Shown here: in pieces, positions 12,246 to 42,989 of the stretch
How the letters are laid out: each line of letters opens with the position of its first letter
Position numbering within the stretch: the stretch's first letter is position 1
Assembly (NCBI RefSeq): GCF_018474005.1
Contig: NZ_JAHCSH010000001.1
Location: 310,001 to 374,000, forward strand
Direction: 5' to 3'
Source of the DNA: Curvibacter sp. CHRR-16
GTDB taxonomy: Bacteria > Pseudomonadota > Gammaproteobacteria > Burkholderiales > Burkholderiaceae_C
DNA: 64,000 nucleotides
Program-made: the position numbers and the translations under genes
Notes under the pieces: generated by a model
What the model was told of the DNA's origin: nothing
The model's database searches: none
The model's input: the letters and a program-made list of their open reading frames with translations, nothing else

Positions 12246-12298
12246 ACGGGCTGTACAGCCCGTCCAGTAAGCTGAAGCAGCTATCAAATTGATAGCAT
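12246..12298. repeat. Palindromic repeat, copy 1 (intergenic)
   Basis: The copy consists of a perfect palindrome ACGGGCTGTACAGCCCGT (12246-12263), a short spacer, and GCTATCAAATTGATAGC (12280-12296), itself an 8-bp inverted repeat around one base. On the minus strand the first palindrome is followed by TTTTTATG and could act as a terminator. Its reverse complement aligns along about 55 bases with the copy at 62014. It is the only copy found outside a gene. Confidence 0.7.
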
Positions 12299-15563: not shown

Positions 15564-16937
15564 ATGCACGCCTACCGCGCCAGTTTGTTGTGGTTTGTCT
15601 CCGGCAGCACTGCCTTGCAGCCGCACGTTCACTTCGAGACCGATGGCCTGCTGGTCACCACTACCGGTGCCGGTGGCGTGGAGGTGGTGCACGCTATTGG
15701 CGCATGGAGCGACCTGAAAGAGCACTACGCGCACGTAGCCGTGCAGCACTGGCCCGGCAAGGTCATTGCGCCGGGCTTTGTGGATATGCACATCCACTAC
15801 CCGCAGGTGGACGTGATCGGCTCGCCCGCCAGTGGCCTGCTGCCTTGGCTGGAGAACTACACCTTTCCCGAAGAAAAACGCTTCGCAGAGCCTGCCCATG
15901 CTGCTGAGGTTGCTACATTTTTTGTAGCAGAACTGCTGCGCAATGGTGTTACCACGGCACTCACGTTTGCCACCAGCAGCCCCAGCAGCGTGCAGGCCTT
16001 GTTTGCACAGGCCAAGGCGCAGCACTTGCGCCTCATCACCGGCCTGTGCCTGATGGATCGCCACGCGCCTGACTTTTTGCTCCACGGCACACAGGACAGC
16101 TTGCAGCAGACCGAGGCGCTGATACGCCAGTGGCACGGCGTGGACCGCTTGGGCTATGCCATCACGCCGCGTTTTGCGCCCACCAGCACCGAGGCGCAGC
16201 TGCGCGGTGCGGGCGAGCTGGCAGCCCAGTTCCCCGATGTATGGATACAAAGCCATGTGGCCGAGAACGTGGACGAAATCGCGTGGGTGCGCGAACTCTT
16301 TCCCGCGCACCGCAGCTACCTGCAAACCTATGCCGAGCTGGGGTTGATGCGCCAGCGCGCCGTCTACGCCCACTGCATCCACTTTGACGACGACGACCGC
16401 GCCCTGATGCGCGAGCGCCAGACGGCTGCTGCCATCAGTCCTACGAGCAACTTGTTTTTGGGCAGCGGTTTTTTTGACTACGAAGGAGCCCACCGCATGG
16501 GCTATTTGCATGGGCTGGCCAGCGATGTGGGCGGGGGCACCAGCTTCAGCCCCTTCCACACCATGCTGGCAGCCTATTACGTGGGGCGCACTGCCGTGCA
16601 GGCCAGTGCCCAGCACCCGGCCAAGCCGGGTTTGTCGCTCACACCGCCGCAGTTGTGGTGGCAGCACACGGCGGGTGCCGCCCAAGCCTTGGGTTTGGAG
16701 GGCCAAGTGGGCAACTTGTTGCCCGGCTGCGAGGCCGACTTCATCGTGCTCAACCCCCAAGCCACGCCGCTGCTGGCGCGCCGTACGGCGCAGGCCCGCA
16801 GCGTGGAGGAGTGGCTGTTCGCCCTCATCGTGCTGGGGGACGACCGCTTGGTGGAGCACACCCACATTGCCTACAAGGATGGCAAGCCTGTAGGGTCCGT
16901 ACAATCCGCCCCAGTTTTAGGAGCTGCGCTGTTATGA
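15564..16937 (+). CDS. guaD: Guanine deaminase
   Basis: This 457-residue amidohydrolase converts guanine to xanthine and ammonia. It has the metal-binding [12 protein letters not shown] (near residue 75), the substrate loop [22 protein letters not shown] (His near 229), [11 protein letters not shown] and a late Asp in [11 protein letters not shown]. Those positions fit the zinc-binding set of the family. A palindromic repeat is embedded in frame at about residues 107-122 (protein segment [10 protein letters not shown]). The gene follows the BMP protein and overlaps the dcd start by ATGA, so purine catabolism and dCTP deamination are co-translated. Confidence 0.92.
15885..15930 (+). repeat. 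Palindromic repeat, copy 2 (inside guaD, in frame)
   Basis: The core is GCTACATTTTTTGTAGC (15912-15928), an inverted repeat. It is preceded by about 27 bases that align with copies at 54671 and 62014 (shared CAGAGC or TAGAGC, then GCTGA). It is read as [10 protein letters not shown]. The rsuA-like copy is read in the same phase as ADAATEFVAD. Confidence 0.65.
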
Positions 16938-17506
16938 GTATCAAGAGTGATCGCTGGATTCGCCGTATGGCCGAGGAACACGGCATGATCGAGCCGTTTG
17001 AGCCTGGCCAAGTGCGCCATGTAGAAGGCCGCAAGGTCATCTCCTACGGCACCAGCAGCTATGGCTATGACATCCGCTGCGCGCCCGAGTTCAAGGTCTT
17101 CACCAACATCCACAGCACCGTGGTGGATCCGAAAAACTTCGACGAAAAAAGCTTTGTCGATTTTCATGGTGATAGCTGCATCATCCCTCCCAACAGCTTT
17201 GCGCTGGCCCGCACGGTGGAGTACTTCCGCATTCCACGCAACGTGCTGACCGTGTGCCTAGGCAAAAGCACCTATGCGCGCTGCGGCATCATCGTCAACG
17301 TCACGCCGTTCGAGCCCGAGTGGGAAGGCTACGTGACGCTGGAGTTCTCTAACACCACGCCGCTGCCCGCCAAGATTTACGCGGGCGAAGGCTGCGCGCA
17401 GGTGCTGTTCTTTGAGAGCGACAAAGACGATGTCTGCGAAACCAGCTACCGCGACCGCAACGGCAAATACCAAGGCCAGCACGGTGTGACGCTGCCCAAG
17501 GCGTAA
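16934..17506 (+). CDS. dcd: dCTP deaminase
   Basis: This 190-residue homotrimeric enzyme deaminates dCTP to dUTP, feeding dTTP synthesis. Motifs are [13 protein letters not shown] (residues about 36-48), [13 protein letters not shown] with the Ser/Arg of the active site (about 108-120), and [17 protein letters not shown] with the catalytic Glu. The ATG overlaps the guaD stop. A strong terminator follows at 17541, just inside the next open frame. Confidence 0.95.
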
Positions 17507-17511
17507 AACGA

Positions 17512-18546
17512 ATGCTTGAAATACTGGCTTTGCTTTTTACAGCGCTCCTCGGAGCGCTTTTTGTTTTTCTAATGTGCCTTTTTGTCTGGTCTTTAGAAAA
17601 AATATTTTGGTTTCTGGTTGATTGTAGAAGATGGATTCGGAAAACTAGTTTTTCTTATGATTTTTTAATAACTGTTAATCGATTTGACTTATTTTTCGAT
17701 AAATTTATTCCATCTTTATTTCTTTTGTTTCTGTCTGGTTTATTTCAATTTTCTTATATTGTTCTATTTTGTTATTGTGGAGCAATAGTTGCTGATTTTG
17801 AATATTTTGTTTTTATATTGTACTGTTGCTTTTTGTTGTGTTTGTCTTCTGTTTTCTTTATCTCATTTAATTTTTTAAAAAATGTTAATGGTTTGTTTTT
17901 GACGTCACTCTCGCTTTTGAGTTCGTTTTTAATTGCTCCTATACTTTGGCATGCAAGAGGAGAGGCGGCGAGTGAGTTAAATGTTTTTCTTGGTGTTTCA
18001 AGTTCTGCTCTAATTGCCTCTGTAAATTTCTATTCTGTAGTAATAGGTGTTTTGTTTTTGTTTTTGGGTTTTTGGTTTGTTTTTTCCATTTTTGTTATTC
18101 TTTTTGAGATATTGTTTTTGATTAGGGTTTTTTTGTTGCCGAGTGAGAAGGTGGGTTGGAGAAAAATTATTAAGTCCCTGGTAATGGATCGATTGATGTG
18201 GTGTTTTTTTTCATCTGTGGTTTGGGTTTATACAATTCCATTCTTGTTTCAGTATGATTTCTTAAAAATGTCTTCGCTGGACTTTGCTTTGCGTTTTGAT
18301 GCGCAAAAATCTATAGTGTGCGGTGATAAAATTATTTCGAACGATGTTAAGCGATACTTCCCTGTTGATGGTGATTCAAATAGATATATTTCTGTTGACT
18401 ATGTTGATCTTGTTTTTTCTTTTAATTATTTTAAGCGTGGGTATAAGCGCTGGAGAAATGAAGTTGATTCTGAAATGAAAAAGGAATATCAAAGCATGGT
18501 TATCCCTTTTGGGGGGCAAGAATTATTAAACTGCCAAAAACCTTAG
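17512..18546 (+). CDS. AT-rich gene for an unknown multi-pass membrane protein
   Basis: Up to 344 residues, extremely rich in Phe, Leu and Val, with around six to eight membrane segments in residues 1-260 (FIPSLFLLFLSGLFQF, YCCFLLCLSSVFFISF, VVIGVLFLFLGFWFVFSIFVILFEILFLI, broken here by position, and MWCFFSSVVWVYTIPFLF). A soluble tail of about 80 residues follows. Base composition is far more AT-rich than any neighbour except the gene at 27676, a sign of recent transfer. The dcd terminator lies inside the first 20 codons, so the true start may be the in-frame ATG at 17572. Its TAG stop is the 4-base target (TTAG) of the adjacent insertion sequence, so the natural C-terminus may be lost. No family recognised. 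Confidence 0.6.
   Translation: MLEILALLFTALLGALFVFLMCLFVWSLEKIFWFLVDCRRWIRKTSFSYDFLITVNRFDLFFDKFIPSLFLLFLSGLFQFSYIVLFCYCGAIVADFEYFVFILYCCFLLCLSSVFFISFNFLKNVNGLFLTSLSLLSSFLIAPILWHARGEAASELNVFLGVSSSALIASVNFYSVVIGVLFLFLGFWFVFSIFVILFEILFLIRVFLLPSEKVGWRKIIKSLVMDRLMWCFFSSVVWVYTIPFLFQYDFLKMSSLDFALRFDAQKSIVCGDKIISNDVKRYFPVDGDSNRYISVDYVDLVFSFNYFKRGYKRWRNEVDSEMKKEYQSMVIPFGGQELLNCQKP
17541..17567 (+). terminator. Rho-independent terminator of dcd
   Basis: Stem AGCGCTC-CTCG-GAGCGCT followed by TTTTTGTTTTT, about 35 bases after the dcd stop. It is the strongest terminator in the window, and it overlaps the 5' end of the AT-rich open frame. Confidence 0.9.
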
Positions 18547-19727
18547 GGAACGTCTGCAAAACTCCCCCCTGTGCCTGCCCGCTATGAGACAGTAGAGCCA
18601 TGAAACAAATGAGCCTTGCCCACACCGGATTCGAGCTTGTGACCAAGCGCACGCGCAAGCGTGAGTTTCTAGAGGAAATAAATCTGGTGATTCCTTGGAC
18701 TGAGCTACTGGCACTGATTGCACCGCATGTACCCGAGGGCAAGACAGGCAGACCGCCGTTTCCCACCCAAGTGATGTTGCGCATTCACTTGCTGCAACAG
18801 TTCTTTGGTCACTCCGACCCGACCATGGAAGAGGCCTTGCACGACATACCGCTGTACCGAGAGTTTGCCCATCTGGATGCTGGCATCAGCCGCTTACCCG
18901 ACGAGAGCACGATTCTTCGCTTCAGACACCTGCTCCAAGAGCACGGGCTGGGACAACAGATTTTGGCCAGCGTCAACGCCAAACTCATTGACCGTGGCTT
19001 GATGCTCAAGACAGGCACCGTAGTCGATGCCACCTTAATTGCCGCCCCCAGCTCGACCAAGAACGACAGCGGTGAGCGAGACCCGGAGATGCACCAAACC
19101 AAGAAGGGCAACCAGTGGCACTTTGGCATGAAGGCGCACATTGGTGTGGACGCTGATTCTGGTTTGGTACACACCGTCCGACCACAGCGGCCAACGCGCA
19201 CAACATCACACAGGCACATGCCTTGCTGCATGGCGAGGAAGAAGTTGTCTTTGCCGACTCCGGTTACCGGGGAGTTCATAAGCGTGAAGAAATCCAGGAT
19301 CAGCATCCCGAAGTGGACTGGCTCATAGCCATGACGCCCAGTGAGCGCAAGGTCATGGACAAGAGCAAGCTTGTGAACGCATTGCGCGAGCAACTGGAAA
19401 AACTCAAGGCCAGCATCCGTGCCAAGGTGGAGCATCCGTTTCGAGTGATTAAGTGCCAGTTTGGGTATCGCAAGGTACGCTACCGTGGCCTAGCCAAGAA
19501 CACCAATCAGTTGCTGGTGATGTTTGCGATGTCCAACCTGTGGATGGCGCGCAAGCGAATGGTGCAGGGGCTGCAAGCATGAGTGCGCCTGCAGCATGGG
19601 TAAGGAGCCGAAAACGGGGCTCAAAGAGCCCAATGAGCGGGAAATCAGCGGCAAATTCAACGCTGGTTTCGCCATGTGAAGATTCAGGCATCAACTCGCA
19701 TTGTGGCGGGGCTTATGCAGACCATCC
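18547..19727 (+). mobile_element. IS5-group insertion sequence, about 1181 bp
   Basis: The terminal inverted repeats match at 11 of 13 bases when read from 18546 inward (GGGAACGTCTGCA) and from 19728 inward (GGGATGGTCTGCA). The flanks are TTAG at 18543-18546 and CTAG at 19728-19731, both fitting the YTAR target of the IS5 group but not identical, so one side has mutated or the flanks have recombined. It carries one transposase gene, which is frameshifted. The left flank is AT-rich and the right flank GC-rich, which suggests a deletion or a boundary of transferred DNA at the element. Confidence 0.85.
18600..19582 (+). pseudogene. IS5-type DDE transposase, frameshifted
   Basis: The first frame runs from MKQMSLAHTGFELVTKRT to GLVHTV (about residues 1-193) and carries the N-terminal DUF772-like domain (PPFPTQVMLRIHLLQQFF) and the first catalytic Asp in VVDATLIAAPSS. 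The frame then breaks near 19177-19180, where one base appears to be missing before the expected TTAANAHN. The -1 frame continues with QAHALLHGEEEVVFADSGYRG (second Asp) to KVEHPFRVIKCQFGY (Glu), ending at 19582. Joined, the parts give a full-length transposase. No slippery run of A or T is seen at the break, so a mutation is more likely than programmed frameshifting. Confidence 0.85.
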
Positions 19728-20122
19728 CTAGATGCTTTGTTGACCGCTGCTTTCATGTGTTCTCGAAGGTTTGAGGCTGTTCAAGGCGTGAAAACTTGCA
19801 TCCCACCTGCACCACTGAATGCTTGAACTTTCGTAGTAGTTGGCATCCAAGGCTGCCTCCGCGGTCTTTTGCGCCATCTTCAGCGTTCGGCTGACGTGGA
19901 TGACACCCCGGTAGGGCTATTCGTGGTGTGCACCAGCCATCACAGTCAGTTCCGCAAACATTTCAATTCGCGACAGGATGGCCTTAGAGAGTGCAGAAAT
20001 GATGCCACTCACTAGGGTTAACGCTGCTGCAATTGCACGGGGTGCGATAATACGAGGCCGAGCCTTGTGCGCGCTGTGGGCGTTGCATCCGGGCTCCCCC
20101 GGTATCAACCTTACGCAGACGC
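19728..20122. other. Gene-poor stretch between IS and rhlE; possible decayed minus-strand gene
   Basis: About 395 bases with no confident gene. On the minus strand one frame is open from about 20060 to a TAG at 19917, and after that single stop continues open (with AQKTAEAALDANYYES) to a TAG formed at the IS edge at 19729-19731. The residue mix looks protein-like, so it may be a decayed gene cut by the IS, but I recognise no family. A promoter for rhlE should lie in 19980-20110; I could not fix one. Confidence 0.25.
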
Positions 20123-21562
20123 ATGACAGACTCTTATTCCAATCTGGCCTTGGCCGAACCCATTCAACGCGCAATTGCCGAGATGGGCTACCAAACCATG
20201 ACGCCCATCCAGGCGCAGGCCATTCCCGTGGTGCTCACGGGACGTGACGTGATGGGCGCAGCCCAGACCGGCACCGGCAAAACGGCGGCCTTTGCGCTGC
20301 CACTGCTGCAACGCATGATGCAGCACGAGAGCAGCTCCACCTCGCCAGCGCGCCACCCCGTGCGTGCCTTGGTGCTGCTGCCCACCCGCGAGTTGGCCGA
20401 CCAAGTGGCCCAGCAGATCAAGCTGTTCTCCAAGTACACCAACCTGCGCTGTGCGGTGGTCTTTGGCGGCATGGACATGAAACCGCAAACGGCTGAGCTC
20501 AAAACTGGCATTGAAGTGCTGGTGGCCACGCCGGGCCGTTTGCTCGACCACATCGAAGCCAAAACCGTGGTGCTCAACCAAGTGGAATATGTGGTGCTGG
20601 ACGAAGCCGACCGCATGCTGGACATCGGCTTTTTGCCCGACCTGCAACGCATCCTGAGCTACCTGCCCAAGCAGCGCACCACGCTGCTGTTTAGCGCCAC
20701 GTTCTCGCCCGAGATCAAGCGCTTGGCCTCCAGCTACTTGCAAGACCCCATTACCATCGAAGTGGCGCGCTCCAACGCCACGGCATCCACGGTGACGCAA
20801 AAGTTTTACAAGGTCGATGAGGACGACAAGCGCTTTGCCTTGCTCGATATCGTGCAGCGCGAGCAGATCAAACAAGCTTTTGTGTTTGTGAACAGCAAGC
20901 TCGGTTGTTCGCGCCTGACGCGCAATCTGGAGCGCGACGGCTACAAAGTGGCGGCCCTGCACGGCGACAAATCGCAGGACGAGCGACTCAAAGCGCTGGA
21001 CGCGTTCAAAAAGGGTGAGGTCGATTTGCTCATTTGTACCGACGTGGCGGCACGTGGCTTGGATATCAAAGACGTGCCTGCCGTGTTCAACATCGACATT
21101 CCCTTCAACGCCGAAGACTACGTGCACCGCATTGGCCGCACAGGCCGTGCAGGTGCGTCGGGCTTGGCCGTGAGCTTTGTGGACGGTGGTGATACCAAGC
21201 TGCTGGCCGAGGTGGAAAAACTCATCAAGATCAAAGCCACCGTGCTGGAGATGGACTGGCTGGAAACCCCGCGTGACCGCATTCGCCGCCTCTCGGGCAA
21301 GCCTGCCCGCACCGAGCGCAGCGAGGATGACACCAGCAGCAGCCGTGCCAACAGCGGCTACCGCATGCCAGCCAAGTCGCTCGACCCTTTCTTTACCAAA
21401 CCCTACGAACCCAGCAGCAGCGACGCCCAACCCGCTTGGGAGGCTGCCCCGGCCAATACCCGCAGCGCTGCAGCGGGCCGTTTGTCGCCCAACATCAAAC
21501 CCAAGCGCAAAGTGGCTGCGCTGTTCAAACCAGCTGACAGTTTCACTCCGCCCCAGGCGTAG
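20123..21562 (+). CDS. rhlE: DEAD-box ATP-dependent RNA helicase, RhlE type
   Basis: This 479-residue helicase has the Q motif (PIQAQAIP), motif I AQTGTGKT (near residue 50), Ia PTREL, II VLDEADRMLD, III FSATF, and in the second domain motif VI HRIGRTGR (near 337). The C-terminal tail (about 400-479) is basic and low-complexity, as is usual for RhlE. It remodels rRNA or mRNA structures in the cytoplasm. The 3' end overlaps the convergent apaH gene by 20 bases. Confidence 0.93.
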   Translation: MTDSYSNLALAEPIQRAIAEMGYQTMTPIQAQAIPVVLTGRDVMGAAQTGTGKTAAFALPLLQRMMQHESSSTSPARHPVRALVLLPTRELADQVAQQIKLFSKYTNLRCAVVFGGMDMKPQTAELKTGIEVLVATPGRLLDHIEAKTVVLNQVEYVVLDEADRMLDIGFLPDLQRILSYLPKQRTTLLFSATFSPEIKRLASSYLQDPITIEVARSNATASTVTQKFYKVDEDDKRFALLDIVQREQIKQAFVFVNSKLGCSRLTRNLERDGYKVAALHGDKSQDERLKALDAFKKGEVDLLICTDVAARGLDIKDVPAVFNIDIPFNAEDYVHRIGRTGRAGASGLAVSFVDGGDTKLLAEVEKLIKIKATVLEMDWLETPRDRIRRLSGKPARTERSEDDTSSSRANSGYRMPAKSLDPFFTKPYEPSSSDAQPAWEAAPANTRSAAAGRLSPNIKPKRKVAALFKPADSFTPPQA

Positions 21563-27675: not shown

Positions 27676-29109
27676 ATGCCAACTGATGAGTATATTCATG
27701 GGAATGATTTATCAACTCCAGAGAAGATTGCTGGCTCTGCAGCTGATGCTCTTGATGAAAAAATTGTTTTGCTGGAGAAAAGGGTTAATAATATTTTTCT
27801 GTCTGTAAACTCTATAGAGCAATTTTCTTCCGAAATAGATGCTAGAAAAAATGAAGTAAACGATTTTTTATCATCCTTGAAAAAAGAAAAATCAGCGTTT
27901 GCATCTTTGCTTAAGGCAATTGCTAGTATAAGTTCGAGTGCTAAAGAGAAAGAAGGGCAAATTCAAGATAATCTCATAAAATCAAATAATTTGGTTCATG
28001 TAATTGATGGGCAGCATGATCAAGTTGCTGGTAAGTTAAAAGAAATTGATGCTCTTCAATCTGAATTGTCTGCACTGGATGAAATAAAGAAAAGCCTAGA
28101 AGAGTGCAAAGTAACTGCGAATGAAGATGCTAAAAAAATAAATGATATTTATAATAATGTTCAGTCGCAGTTGGCATTTGCACAAAAGAAAAATTCATTT
28201 ATTGATGTTGTTTATAAAGAAATAATAGGGCATGATACAAAAAATGAAGATGGTGAGGATGTGCATGTTGATGGGTTAAAGGATGAGTTGAAGAAATCTT
28301 TTGATGATTTAATGGAAGGTTTTCAAAATCTTTCGAAGGATTTTAAGGATTTAAAAATTTCTTCAAATAAAGATTTCTCCTCTTTTATTTCTGCATCGCG
28401 TGAAGAATATAAAAACACTCTGCGACAATTGGAGGATTTGCTGCCTGGGGCATTGGCTACAGGTCTTAGTCATGCCTACGATAAGAAGAAAAGAGAGGAG
28501 GTTGTTGAGCAAAAAAGAAATGCGGCAGTTTTTATAAAGTGTGTTATTGGTTTGATATGTATTTCTTTTATTCCTATTGCTGTAGATTTTTTTCTTGTTG
28601 TTGGTAAAGGCATTGATATACTAAAGGTTGTTGAAGATACTCCAAAAATGATTGTTCTGATGATGCCAATCTATGTTCCTATTCTTTGGTTGGCTCATTC
28701 AGCAAATAAAAAGATAAACTTATCTAAAAGATTGATTGAGGAATATACTCATAAATCTGTTCTTGGGAAAACTTTTTCAGGCCTTTCTAAGCAAATTAGT
28801 GATCTTTCACAAAGTGATAGTGTTAAGAATGAGCTTCGTGAAAAATTGCTTTTTAATTTGTTGCATGTAAGCTCTGAAAATCCAGGAAAGCTTATTACAG
28901 ATTATCAGAAGTCTGATCATCCATTAATGGAGGCTTTGGAAAATAGTGCGAAGCTTGCAGCATCAGTTGAGCGATTAGCCAAAATACCCGGGTTTTCATC
29001 CATGGCTAAAAAGCTTTCAGAAAAGAGCGAAAAGCTTTTGGAGGAAAAAAGAAAGCAAGTCGATACAGGCTTAGATGCCCAAGACGAATTGCAAAAAGAA
29101 AAGAACTGA
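27676..29109 (+). CDS. AT-rich gene for a coiled-coil protein with two membrane segments
   Basis: This 477-residue protein has a long Lys/Glu/Asp/Ser-rich coiled-coil half (about residues 20-265), then two membrane segments (FIKCVIGLICISFIPIAVDFFLVVG, about 287-311, broken by position here, and MIVLMMPIYVPILWLA, about 327-342), then a second charged helical region to the end. It is much more AT-rich than its neighbours, which are ordinary chromosomal genes, so it is probably a single-gene acquisition. The start has AAGGGGGAC five bases upstream, and the AT-rich leader (27620-27665) suggests its own promoter. The layout, a coiled-coil sensor or ring with a membrane hairpin, recalls some phage-defence effectors, but no family is recognised. 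Confidence 0.75.
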   Translation: MPTDEYIHGNDLSTPEKIAGSAADALDEKIVLLEKRVNNIFLSVNSIEQFSSEIDARKNEVNDFLSSLKKEKSAFASLLKAIASISSSAKEKEGQIQDNLIKSNNLVHVIDGQHDQVAGKLKEIDALQSELSALDEIKKSLEECKVTANEDAKKINDIYNNVQSQLAFAQKKNSFIDVVYKEIIGHDTKNEDGEDVHVDGLKDELKKSFDDLMEGFQNLSKDFKDLKISSNKDFSSFISASREEYKNTLRQLEDLLPGALATGLSHAYDKKKREEVVEQKRNAAVFIKCVIGLICISFIPIAVDFFLVVGKGIDILKVVEDTPKMIVLMMPIYVPILWLAHSANKKINLSKRLIEEYTHKSVLGKTFSGLSKQISDLSQSDSVKNELREKLLFNLLHVSSENPGKLITDYQKSDHPLMEALENSAKLAASVERLAKIPGFSSMAKKLSEKSEKLLEEKRKQVDTGLDAQDELQKEKN

Positions 29110-40250: not shown

Positions 40251-42989
40251 TCAGTCCGCCAGCGCACGCTGCACGACTTCGCGTACGTCGTTGCTCAGGT
40301 CGCCCTTGGCGGCCACGCGCACCAGCGCCTCACGGGCGGCGTGTTGGTAGGGCTCGGCCAGCTTTTTCCAGCGGTCGAGCGCACGGGCCAAGCGGGCGGC
40401 TACTTGGGGGTTGATGGCGTCCAGTTCCATCACGCGCTCGGCCCAGAACACATAACCAGCCGCATCGGCGCGGTGAAAGCCTGCCGGGTTGGCATTGCAG
40501 TAGCTGAAGATCAAGCTGCGGGCGCGGTTGGGGTTTTTCAGCGTGAAGTCGGGGTGGTTGAGCAACTGGCGCACAGCGCCCAGCACTTGGCCGCCACGGT
40601 CACAGGCACCAGCTTGGAGGGCAAACCATTTGTCCAGTACCAGCGCTTCGTCTTTGAACTGGGTGTGGAAGCGGGCCAATGCCGCTTCAGCCAAGGGGCT
40701 GCCGCTGCCCACCAAAGCGTGCAGGGCGTTGAAGCGGTCGGTCATGTTGCCCGCATCCTTGAAGCGCTGCAGTGTTTTGCCGGGCCACACGGTGTCGCCG
40801 CTGTCGCGGGCGGCCAGGCACAGGTAGCCCAGCGCCAAGCCTGCCAGTGCGCGCAGGCCGCTGGAGTGGGCGTCGGGGCTGTAGGCACCGCTGTCTTTGT
40901 GTGCCTCAAAAGCCCACACCCAGTCGGCGTGCAGGGCATTGGCCAGTTGGGCGCGCATGCCTTCGCGCACGGCGTGGATGCGCTGTGGGTCCACCACGCC
41001 CAGTTGTTCAGCGATGTAGGTTTCCGATGGCAGCGTCAGCACCAGTTCCTTGAATGCTGCATCGAGTTGTGGGTTGCGCAGCACGGCGCGCAGGGCCTCT
41101 ACAAATTCTTCAGACAAGAATTGGCCGCTAGAGCTTGCTGCGTCTGCTGTGGCTGCTATTGAATTGATAGCAAACCGCAGCGCCAGACGCTGGGCAGCTT
41201 CCCAACGGTTGAAGGCGTCGCTGTCGTGCGCCAGCAAAGTGAGCAGCTGTGCGTCGCTGAAGTCCATGTCCAAAATGACCGGGGCAGAGAAGCCGCGCAG
41301 CAGCGAGGCCACGGGTTCTTCGCTCACTTGGGTGAAGGTGAAGACTTGCTCGGGCTGATCCAGCACCAGCAGGTGTTCATGGCCATGGCTGTTGCCATCC
41401 AGATGCAAGCCCAGCGCTTGGCCGGATTGCGCGCCCACCAAGCCCATGCGCACGGGGATGACAAAGGGCAGCTTGCTGGGCTGGTCGTTGCTGGGCGCGC
41501 AGTGCTGGCTCAGCGTCAGGGTGTAGGTCTGCTCTTGGGCGTTGTAAAAGCCACGGGCTTGCACACGGGGGGTACCGCTTTGGGCGTACCAGCGCTTGAA
41601 CTGCTCCAGCCGCTGCGCCAACGCCGAGCCGGGGTTGGCATCGGCAATGGCTTGGGCGAAGTCGTCGCAGGTCACGGCCTGGCCGTCGTGGCGGGCAAAG
41701 TACTGCGTCATGCCCTTGGCAAAACCGGCACGACCCAGTGGGTCAGCGGGGCTGCCCACCAGCGTTTGCATCATGCGCACCACTTCGGCACCTTTTTCGT
41801 ACACGGTGACGGTGTAGAAGTTGTTGATCTCGATGTAGCTGTCTGGGCGCACCGGGTGGGCCATGGGGCCCGCATCCTCGGGGAACTGGGCGGTGCGCAG
41901 CACGCGCACGTCTTCAATGCGCTTGACCGCTTTGGCCGAGTCGTCGGCGCACAGGTCTTGGCTGAACTCCTGGTCGCGGAACACGGTCAGCCCTTCTTTG
42001 AGGCTGAGCTGGAACCAGTCGCGACAGGTGATGCGGTTGCCCGTCCAGTTGTGGAAGTACTCGTGGCCGACCACGCTCTCGATGCCGCTGTAGTCGGTGT
42101 CGGTGGCGGTGGCTTGGTTGGCCAGCACGTACTTGGTGTTGAAGATGTTCAGGCCCTTGTTCTCCATGGCACCCATGTTGAAGTCGCTGGTGGCGACGAT
42201 CATGAAGCGCTCCAAGTCCAGCGGCAGGCCAAAGCGGGCTTCGTCCCAGGCGATGGAGGCCATGAGCGAGTTCATGGCGTGCTCGGTCTTGTCCAAGTCG
42301 CCGGCGCGCACAAACACCTGCAGCAAATGCTCGGTGCCCGCACGGCTGACGATGCGCTGCTCGCGCGCCACCAGTTTGCCCGCTACCAAGGCGAACAGGT
42401 AGCAGGGTTTTTTGTGCGGATCGACCCACTTGGCAAAGTGGCGGCCTGCGTTGTCTGCGCCGTCCAAGTCGCCTTGTTCGACCAAGTTGCCGTTGGACAG
42501 CAGCACGGGGTATTTTTTCTTGTCAGCGCGCAGCGTCACGGTGTAGCTGGCCATCACGTCGGGACGATCCAAGAAGTAGGTGATGCGGCGGAAACCCTCG
42601 GCCTCGCACTGGGTGAAGAACGAGTCGTTGCTCACGTACAGGCCCATGAGCTTGCTGTTCTTGGCCGGGGCGCAGGTGGTGAAAATTTCCAGCGTGAAGG
42701 GCTCGGTGCCTTCGGGCAGGTTTTCCAGCACCAGTTGGTTGTCTTCCATCTTGAAGCTGGTGCCTTGGCCGTTGACCAGCACGCGGGCCAAGTTCAACTC
42801 TTCGCCATCCAAACGCAGCGGGCCTGCAGCCACGTCGGCATTGCGGCGCAGCGTCATTTTGTTCAGGACACGGGTTTTGGCCGGGTCGAGGTCAAACGTC
42901 AGGTCAACGGTGTCAATCCAAAACGCCGGGGCTGTGTAGTCCTGGCGGCGGATTACGGTAGCGGGGGCGCCATCACGAAGCATGGACAT
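40251..42989 (-). CDS. pepN: Aminopeptidase N (M1 family)
   Basis: This 912-residue zinc aminopeptidase has the exopeptidase motif GAMEN (in NMGAMENKGLN, near residue 274) and the zinc site VVGHEYFHNWTGNR (HExxH with the distal Glu in LSLKEGLTVFRDQEF). It digests cytoplasmic peptides. The ATG at 42989 has GGAG seven bases upstream; M3 at 42983 is the alternative. The gene starts inside the 3' end of the HAD gene (17-base overlap). Residues about 607-622 (INSIAATADAASSSG) are encoded by an in-frame palindromic repeat, which may explain part of the slightly greater length than the usual 870-890. Confidence 0.94.
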   Translation of the reverse strand: MSMLRDGAPATVIRRQDYTAPAFWIDTVDLTFDLDPAKTRVLNKMTLRRNADVAAGPLRLDGEELNLARVLVNGQGTSFKMEDNQLVLENLPEGTEPFTLEIFTTCAPAKNSKLMGLYVSNDSFFTQCEAEGFRRITYFLDRPDVMASYTVTLRADKKKYPVLLSNGNLVEQGDLDGADNAGRHFAKWVDPHKKPCYLFALVAGKLVAREQRIVSRAGTEHLLQVFVRAGDLDKTEHAMNSLMASIAWDEARFGLPLDLERFMIVATSDFNMGAMENKGLNIFNTKYVLANQATATDTDYSGIESVVGHEYFHNWTGNRITCRDWFQLSLKEGLTVFRDQEFSQDLCADDSAKAVKRIEDVRVLRTAQFPEDAGPMAHPVRPDSYIEINNFYTVTVYEKGAEVVRMMQTLVGSPADPLGRAGFAKGMTQYFARHDGQAVTCDDFAQAIADANPGSALAQRLEQFKRWYAQSGTPRVQARGFYNAQEQTYTLTLSQHCAPSNDQPSKLPFVIPVRMGLVGAQSGQALGLHLDGNSHGHEHLLVLDQPEQVFTFTQVSEEPVASLLRGFSAPVILDMDFSDAQLLTLLAHDSDAFNRWEAAQRLALRFAINSIAATADAASSSGQFLSEEFVEALRAVLRNPQLDAAFKELVLTLPSETYIAEQLGVVDPQRIHAVREGMRAQLANALHADWVWAFEAHKDSGAYSPDAHSSGLRALAGLALGYLCLAARDSGDTVWPGKTLQRFKDAGNMTDRFNALHALVGSGSPLAEAALARFHTQFKDEALVLDKWFALQAGACDRGGQVLGAVRQLLNHPDFTLKNPNRARSLIFSYCNANPAGFHRADAAGYVFWAERVMELDAINPQVAARLARALDRWKKLAEPYQHAAREALVRVAAKGDLSNDVREVVQRALAD
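41123..41172 (+). repeat. Palindromic repeat, copy 4 (inside pepN, antisense)
   Basis: It ends in GCTATTGAATTGATAGC (41155-41171). The upstream GGCCGCTAGAGCTTGCTG half matches the arm I associate with the Comamonadaceae repeat. It aligns with the apaH copy over about 42 bases and is read in the same phase. Confidence 0.65.

Follow-up and report, generated by a model that had tools for sequence, protein, structure and literature searches.

An AT-rich orphan gene for a predicted membrane protein between dcd and an IS5-family element in Curvibacter sp. CHRR-16

Lone AT-rich ORFans acquired by bacteria are usually targeted by xenogeneic silencers, among them H-NS and MvaT. Two further described systems bear on the locus presented here: the IS5 elements, for which the target YTAR is reported in PMC10359306, and membrane proteins that arise de novo from thymine-rich DNA in yeast, as described in PMC7005711. 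The locus lies in a window of 64,000 bp (the whole stretch of DNA analysed), which is part of contig C1 in the 3.45-Mb genome of Curvibacter sp. CHRR-16. As the first-pass annotation of the sequence had proposed, an AT-rich gene is found there between dcd and an insertion sequence: the open frame at 17512–18546 on the forward strand has 344 codons and a GC content of 32%, compared with roughly 60% for the chromosome, and its right-hand neighbour is an IS5-family element. The frame encodes a predicted integral membrane protein with a hydrophilic C-terminal part, and the reading that we favour, and regard as fairly probable, is that it is an orphan gene, complete and acquired by horizontal transfer, whose product is an inner-membrane protein and which was abutted later by an IS that is now frameshifted.

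A variable interval between dcd and rhlE

The left neighbour of the AT-rich frame is dcd, encoding dCTP deaminase (16934–17506, forward strand; Pfam DCD, E 2.2e-37), and the next intact gene to the right of the IS is an rhlE-type DEAD-box helicase gene (20123–21562, forward strand; Pfam DEAD, E 2.7e-51). Comparison of this interval across the 58 genus genomes with a complete dcd, as had been suggested, shows that rhlE lies downstream of dcd in 55 of them over the stretch read; in the other three either the stretch or contig ends before rhlE or other genes are present. The interval is mostly short, spanning 66–239 bp in 41 of the 58. In four relatives (L098–L101) it is filled by an intact convergent gene that we take to be of HD-GYP type; the Pfam assignment is HD_5, with an E of 1.1e-43 in L099. 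Next to the HD gene in L100, and by itself in eight relatives that lack the HD gene (L028, L034, L038, L049, L052, L080, L083 and L092), there is another kind of gene, the likeness of these nine being judged from their first residues, where the L038 reading frame seems to be shifted; the L028 product carries an HEVGH zinc-peptidase-like motif. L044 and L091 have longer intervals with no frame of 120 codons. The AT-rich gene is present in none of the 58. These differing contents identify the dcd–rhlE interval as a variable site.

About 390 bp separate the IS from rhlE in the window, and they contain the 3' remnant of an HD-GYP-type gene on the reverse strand (19732–19996, approximate limits), which has an internal deletion and a stop. 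A profile of the four HD-domain proteins matches one minus-strand frame of 19731–20122 with 34.3 bits (hmmsearch, E 3.7e-12 in a six-frame set), and the best tblastn match has an E of 5.9e-11; judged from its sequence, the HD-GYP-type gene of the window has decayed. At the DNA level the remnant region has no blastn match to the relatives, and local alignment gives a score of 51 with L030 against a shuffled maximum of 42 (20 shuffles) and scores that exceed the shuffled maximum by no more than 5 with L027, L035 and L042 (20 shuffles each). The position of the remnant to the right of the IS indicates that the lineage once had the dcd/HD-GYP/rhlE arrangement, and the AT-rich gene has dcd on one side and the 3' end of the remnant on the other. 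The GC content does return beyond the IS, as had been claimed, but gradually: successive 40-nt bins give 0.45, 0.53 and 0.45, then 0.60 and 0.62, then 0.47–0.57.

We also note several short elements in and around the interval. A GCTATCGGATGGATAGC-type hairpin recurs upstream of rhlE in relatives such as L026, L036 and L046 and may be an RNA leader element or a repeat; allowing one mismatch, the window's own interval lacks it, and similar stems occur at 12280–12296 and 41155–41171. An 11-bp direct repeat (GAATGCTTGAA) lies on both sides of the insert (17510–17520 and 19817–19827; 9 of 500 shuffles are as good), and a 28-nt stretch resembling the end of dcd is shared by 17483–17509 and 19768–19795 (2 of 500 shuffles). 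The repeats flanking the insert may be left over from the insertion event, although the 28-nt stretch may also be the 3' end of the HD-GYP-type gene.

The hairpin, the start codon and the coding evidence

A terminator-like hairpin with a T tract lies at 17541–17568 on the forward strand, inside codons 10–19 of the AT-rich frame. The hairpin proper (17541–17558, AGCGCTC-CTCG-GAGCGCT, within codons 10–16) is followed by TTTTGTTTTT; nowhere else, on either strand of the window, are 7–12 perfect stem pairs combined with a loop of 3–6 and at least 7 T among the next 10 bases. A looser scan of 17400–20150 gives 3 sites where 3.6 are expected by chance. The first-pass annotation placed a native dcd terminator within the first 20 codons, with DNA of native composition up to that point and the junction with foreign DNA there or immediately beyond. 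The hairpin and its T tract are indeed present, but the remainder of this description is not supported. The AGCGCTC hairpin is found in none of the 58 relatives and so appears particular to the window lineage, and with both hairpin and orphan gene absent from all of them the native origin of the terminator is unproven. The exact pattern occurs in 7 of 100 genus genomes including this one, the other six being outside the 58. Terminator-like hairpins (−6 kcal/mol or lower, with a start within the first 100 nt) are present in 31 of the 58, none of the AGCGCTC type, and 24 of the 31 have a GCTATC...GATAGC-type stem near rhlE. Moreover, the AT-richness begins at the dcd stop: GC content is already 0.40 at 17507–17546 (40-nt bins), only the hairpin stem being GC-rich, and in 300-bp bins it is 0.27–0.34 from 17550 to 18449 against 0.56–0.59 over dcd. 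The hairpin, which is the only unusual feature of the AT-rich gene, may thus have arrived with the foreign DNA. A AGCGCTCC...GGAGCGCTTTTT hairpin is present in the five genus members G001, G020, G034, G066 and G154, in which there is no dcd match at E 1e-20.

Translation from the ATG at 17512 would pass through this hairpin. A possible variant of the favoured reading, which we consider rather unlikely but which is compatible with the other explanations, is that the true start, as the first-pass annotation had considered, is the ATG at 17572, just past the hairpin, such that codons 1–20 would be an untranslated leader. However, 17572 has no Shine-Dalgarno-like sequence upstream, whereas 17512 has a Shine-Dalgarno-like AAGG at 10 nt, in the tail of dcd; no promoter-like site has its first hexamer before 17917 (3 sites found in 17400–20150, 3.0 expected); and the strongest first hydrophobic stretch, residues 7–25, requires the upstream start. 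Since the frame from 17512 spans the hairpin, transcripts entering from dcd would probably be reduced before the gene body.

We take the AT-rich frame as a gene for a membrane protein. The longest stop-free run in 17561–18546 is 327 codons. None of 3,000 first-order simulations with this composition came up to it, their longest runs averaging 86 codons and never exceeding 246. The remaining two forward frames of this segment contain 22 and 32 stops. The period-3 composition of the frame is modest, with 26 of 2,000 simulations as high. The segregation of hydrophobic from hydrophilic parts in its hydropathy profile was reached in 0 of 2,000 simulations, which assume even composition along the frame, and its mean hydropathy is below that of 1,923 of 2,000. 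The number of hydrophobic segments was reached by 1,048 of the 2,000 and is expected from T-rich DNA anyway. This last observation is what a degenerate or non-coding T-rich sequence with no working gene would give, its composition favouring long hydrophobic frames: the segment is 46% T, T-rich sequence yields an equal number of hydrophobic segments (for yeast, PMC7005711), the hairpin lies within the frame, and no convincing homologue has been found. We regard this explanation as improbable, given the open length, the stops in the other forward frames and, within the limits of the even-composition assumption, the segregated hydropathy.

A convincing homologue of the protein was not found in Pfam, NCBIfam, PADLOC, PHROGs, PDB, plasmids, phages, contigs or the genus, family and class genomes. 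There are no matches in Pfam at E 1, in NCBIfam at E 10 or in the PADLOC anti-phage defence models at E up to 10; the best PDB sequence has an E of 3.2, and the best PHROG match (E 0.23) covers 17 residues and does not place the protein in a phage family. No tblastn match at E 0.01 is seen in plasmids or in 50,697 phage records, and no relative was confirmed in genome_contigs (two scans) or viral_contigs (one scan), which reach close relatives only. Within the genus, the sole match among 103 genomes at E 0.001 is the source genome itself, the other 102 having none. In the family sample 8 of 399 genomes match at E 0.01, namely the source genome and seven others with E 0.002–0.009; in the class sample 3 of 369, again counting the source genome, match at E 0.001. 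These matches are weak: G325 (family, E 0.002) has 5 stops within the match, G888 (class, E 3.2e-4) has 4, and G884 (class, E 9.5e-4) has none over 54 residues.

Recurrent matches around residues 131–195, with a motif like WHARSDAASS, occur in 39 of 149 genomes, the source genome among them, at E up to 1; in a small set selected for matching, the best E is 5.2e-5. Of 13 matched proteins inspected, 12 have nothing but this short motif in common with the orphan and, from their sequences, are presumed to be cation diffusion facilitators; one is of another kind. The orphan is not considered a homologue of these transporters, and we judge the resemblance coincidental.

The predicted product would reside in the inner membrane, which it would span with some six or seven segments, and its C-terminal part is hydrophilic. 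Its basic residues are clustered at 30–64 and 205–227. By the positive-inside rule basic loops are cytoplasmic; these two would then face the cytoplasm, and the C-terminal part, which contains Cys270 and Cys341, would lie outside it. The two structure models computed from the single sequence have low confidence (pLDDT 52.7 and 40.8), and a membrane accessory function is the most that can be suggested from the sequence.

The IS5-family element and the stop codon

The element at 18547–19727 (forward strand) encodes a transposase with the domains of IS5-type transposases (Pfam DUF772, E 1.2e-19; DDE_Tnp_1, E 4.7e-08), but split over two frames, whereas that of the related copy L073 is a single open frame of 325 codons. 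It has inverted repeats with 26-nt arms (18544–18569 and 19705–19730, 77% complementary), of which three bases per arm belong to the target. The genome contains one full copy of the IS, and two partial matches (71–79%) are on another contig. To the left of the element is TTAG (18543–18546) and to the right CTAG (19728–19731), which agree in three of four letters. As had been noticed from the sequence, the TAG stop of the AT-rich frame (18544–18546) is part of the left copy and directly adjoins the IS, whose termini are GGAACG...CATCC. The reverse-strand frame of the HD-GYP remnant ends in the same four bases, at the right copy.

Among related copies, four have identical 4-bp duplications abutting their GGAA termini (L064 TTAA, L067 CTAG, L071 CTAG and L073 CTAC), and three of seven lack a clean target pair (L063, L068 and L070). 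As related copies duplicate the 4 bp beside GGAA, the TAG stop would be target DNA that predates the IS. When the flanks are joined without the IS, the stop stays at codon 345 with either TTAG or CTAG as the target, and with the remnant ending in the same four bases the insertion would have shortened neither frame. A single clean insertion is likely, short of proof because unrelated YTAR ends would mostly agree equally well, and the one-letter difference between the target copies leaves some doubt that both ends stem from one event.

It had been suggested that the protein is truncated, its 3' part having been deleted by the IS. In its full form this holds that the gene is a 5' fragment of foreign DNA that was once longer, and it can point to the most AT-rich stretch ending about at the IS and to the non-identical target copies. 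We think it quite unlikely: the bases left of the IS would be retained target in an insertion and in an adjacent deletion alike, so that TAG came first in either case; in four related copies the duplicated 4 bp adjoin GGAA; the right flank derives from the neighbour gene expected there, of which it is the 3' part; and the stop survives in the reconstructed empty site. Foreign DNA past the stop may have been lost, which would leave the length of the frame unchanged.

Origin of the gene and comparison with known systems

A plausible history of the locus, on the reading that the frame is a complete acquired gene, is that the gene entered the dcd/HD-GYP/rhlE interval, with the dcd stop on its left and the convergent HD-GYP-type gene on its right, and that an IS5-family element then inserted into the YTAG tetranucleotide holding the stop codon and duplicated it, such that the frame would have kept its full length. 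The stop tetranucleotide directly beside the IS can be read off the sequence; the order of events is what this history would add. The foreign origin proposed in the first-pass annotation is supported by the atypical composition, by the lack of a genus match outside the source genome and by the absence of the gene from the same site in relatives, in which the interval is mostly short. Neither plasmids, phages, genome_contigs nor viral_contigs yielded a donor or carrier, and the family and class samples gave weak short matches only. Counting against the favoured reading are the lack of a homologue and of a carrier or donor, a number of hydrophobic segments that T-rich sequence gives anyway, a mean hydropathy below that of most simulations, the modest period-3 signal, the low confidence of the structure models, the non-identical target copies and the three related IS copies that lack a clean pair. 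It is very unlikely that the gene is controlled by its own translation. Its reading frame would then include an attenuator: ribosomes that start at 17512, near the AAGG in the tail of dcd, would prevent the hairpin from closing, so that downstream transcription continues, and poor initiation would end the transcript.

The outcome is mostly a clarification, in that a suspected truncation by an IS becomes an insertion into a stop codon that would leave the frame at full length. In the genus the dcd–rhlE interval is short or holds an HD-GYP-type gene, a zinc-peptidase-like gene or the orphan, and this variability makes it a usable place to watch the gain and loss of single genes. A further isolated AT-rich gene is present in the window at 27676–29109 (forward strand, 477 aa); it has no Pfam match above the cut-off, and distant partial relatives occur in 2 of 199 other family genomes.

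The locus is most likely of an ordinary kind. Like acquired AT-rich ORFans, the gene has a low GC content, is present in one genome among relatives and stands singly between core genes; unlike them, it is accompanied by no mobile element found that could have carried it. The neighbouring element resembles the IS5 family in its DUF772 and DDE_Tnp_1 domains, inverted repeats and probable YTAR-like target, and departs from it in the broken transposase frame and in target copies that differ by one letter. With cation diffusion facilitator transporters the protein shares the local match at about residues 131–195, but it has no family-level match over the transporter domain. It resembles the de novo proteins of yeast (PMC7005711) in being T-rich, orphan and hydrophobic, and differs from them in that the gene is bacterial, that its open length is far beyond that of the composition simulations, and that the break in composition at its dcd end points to import.
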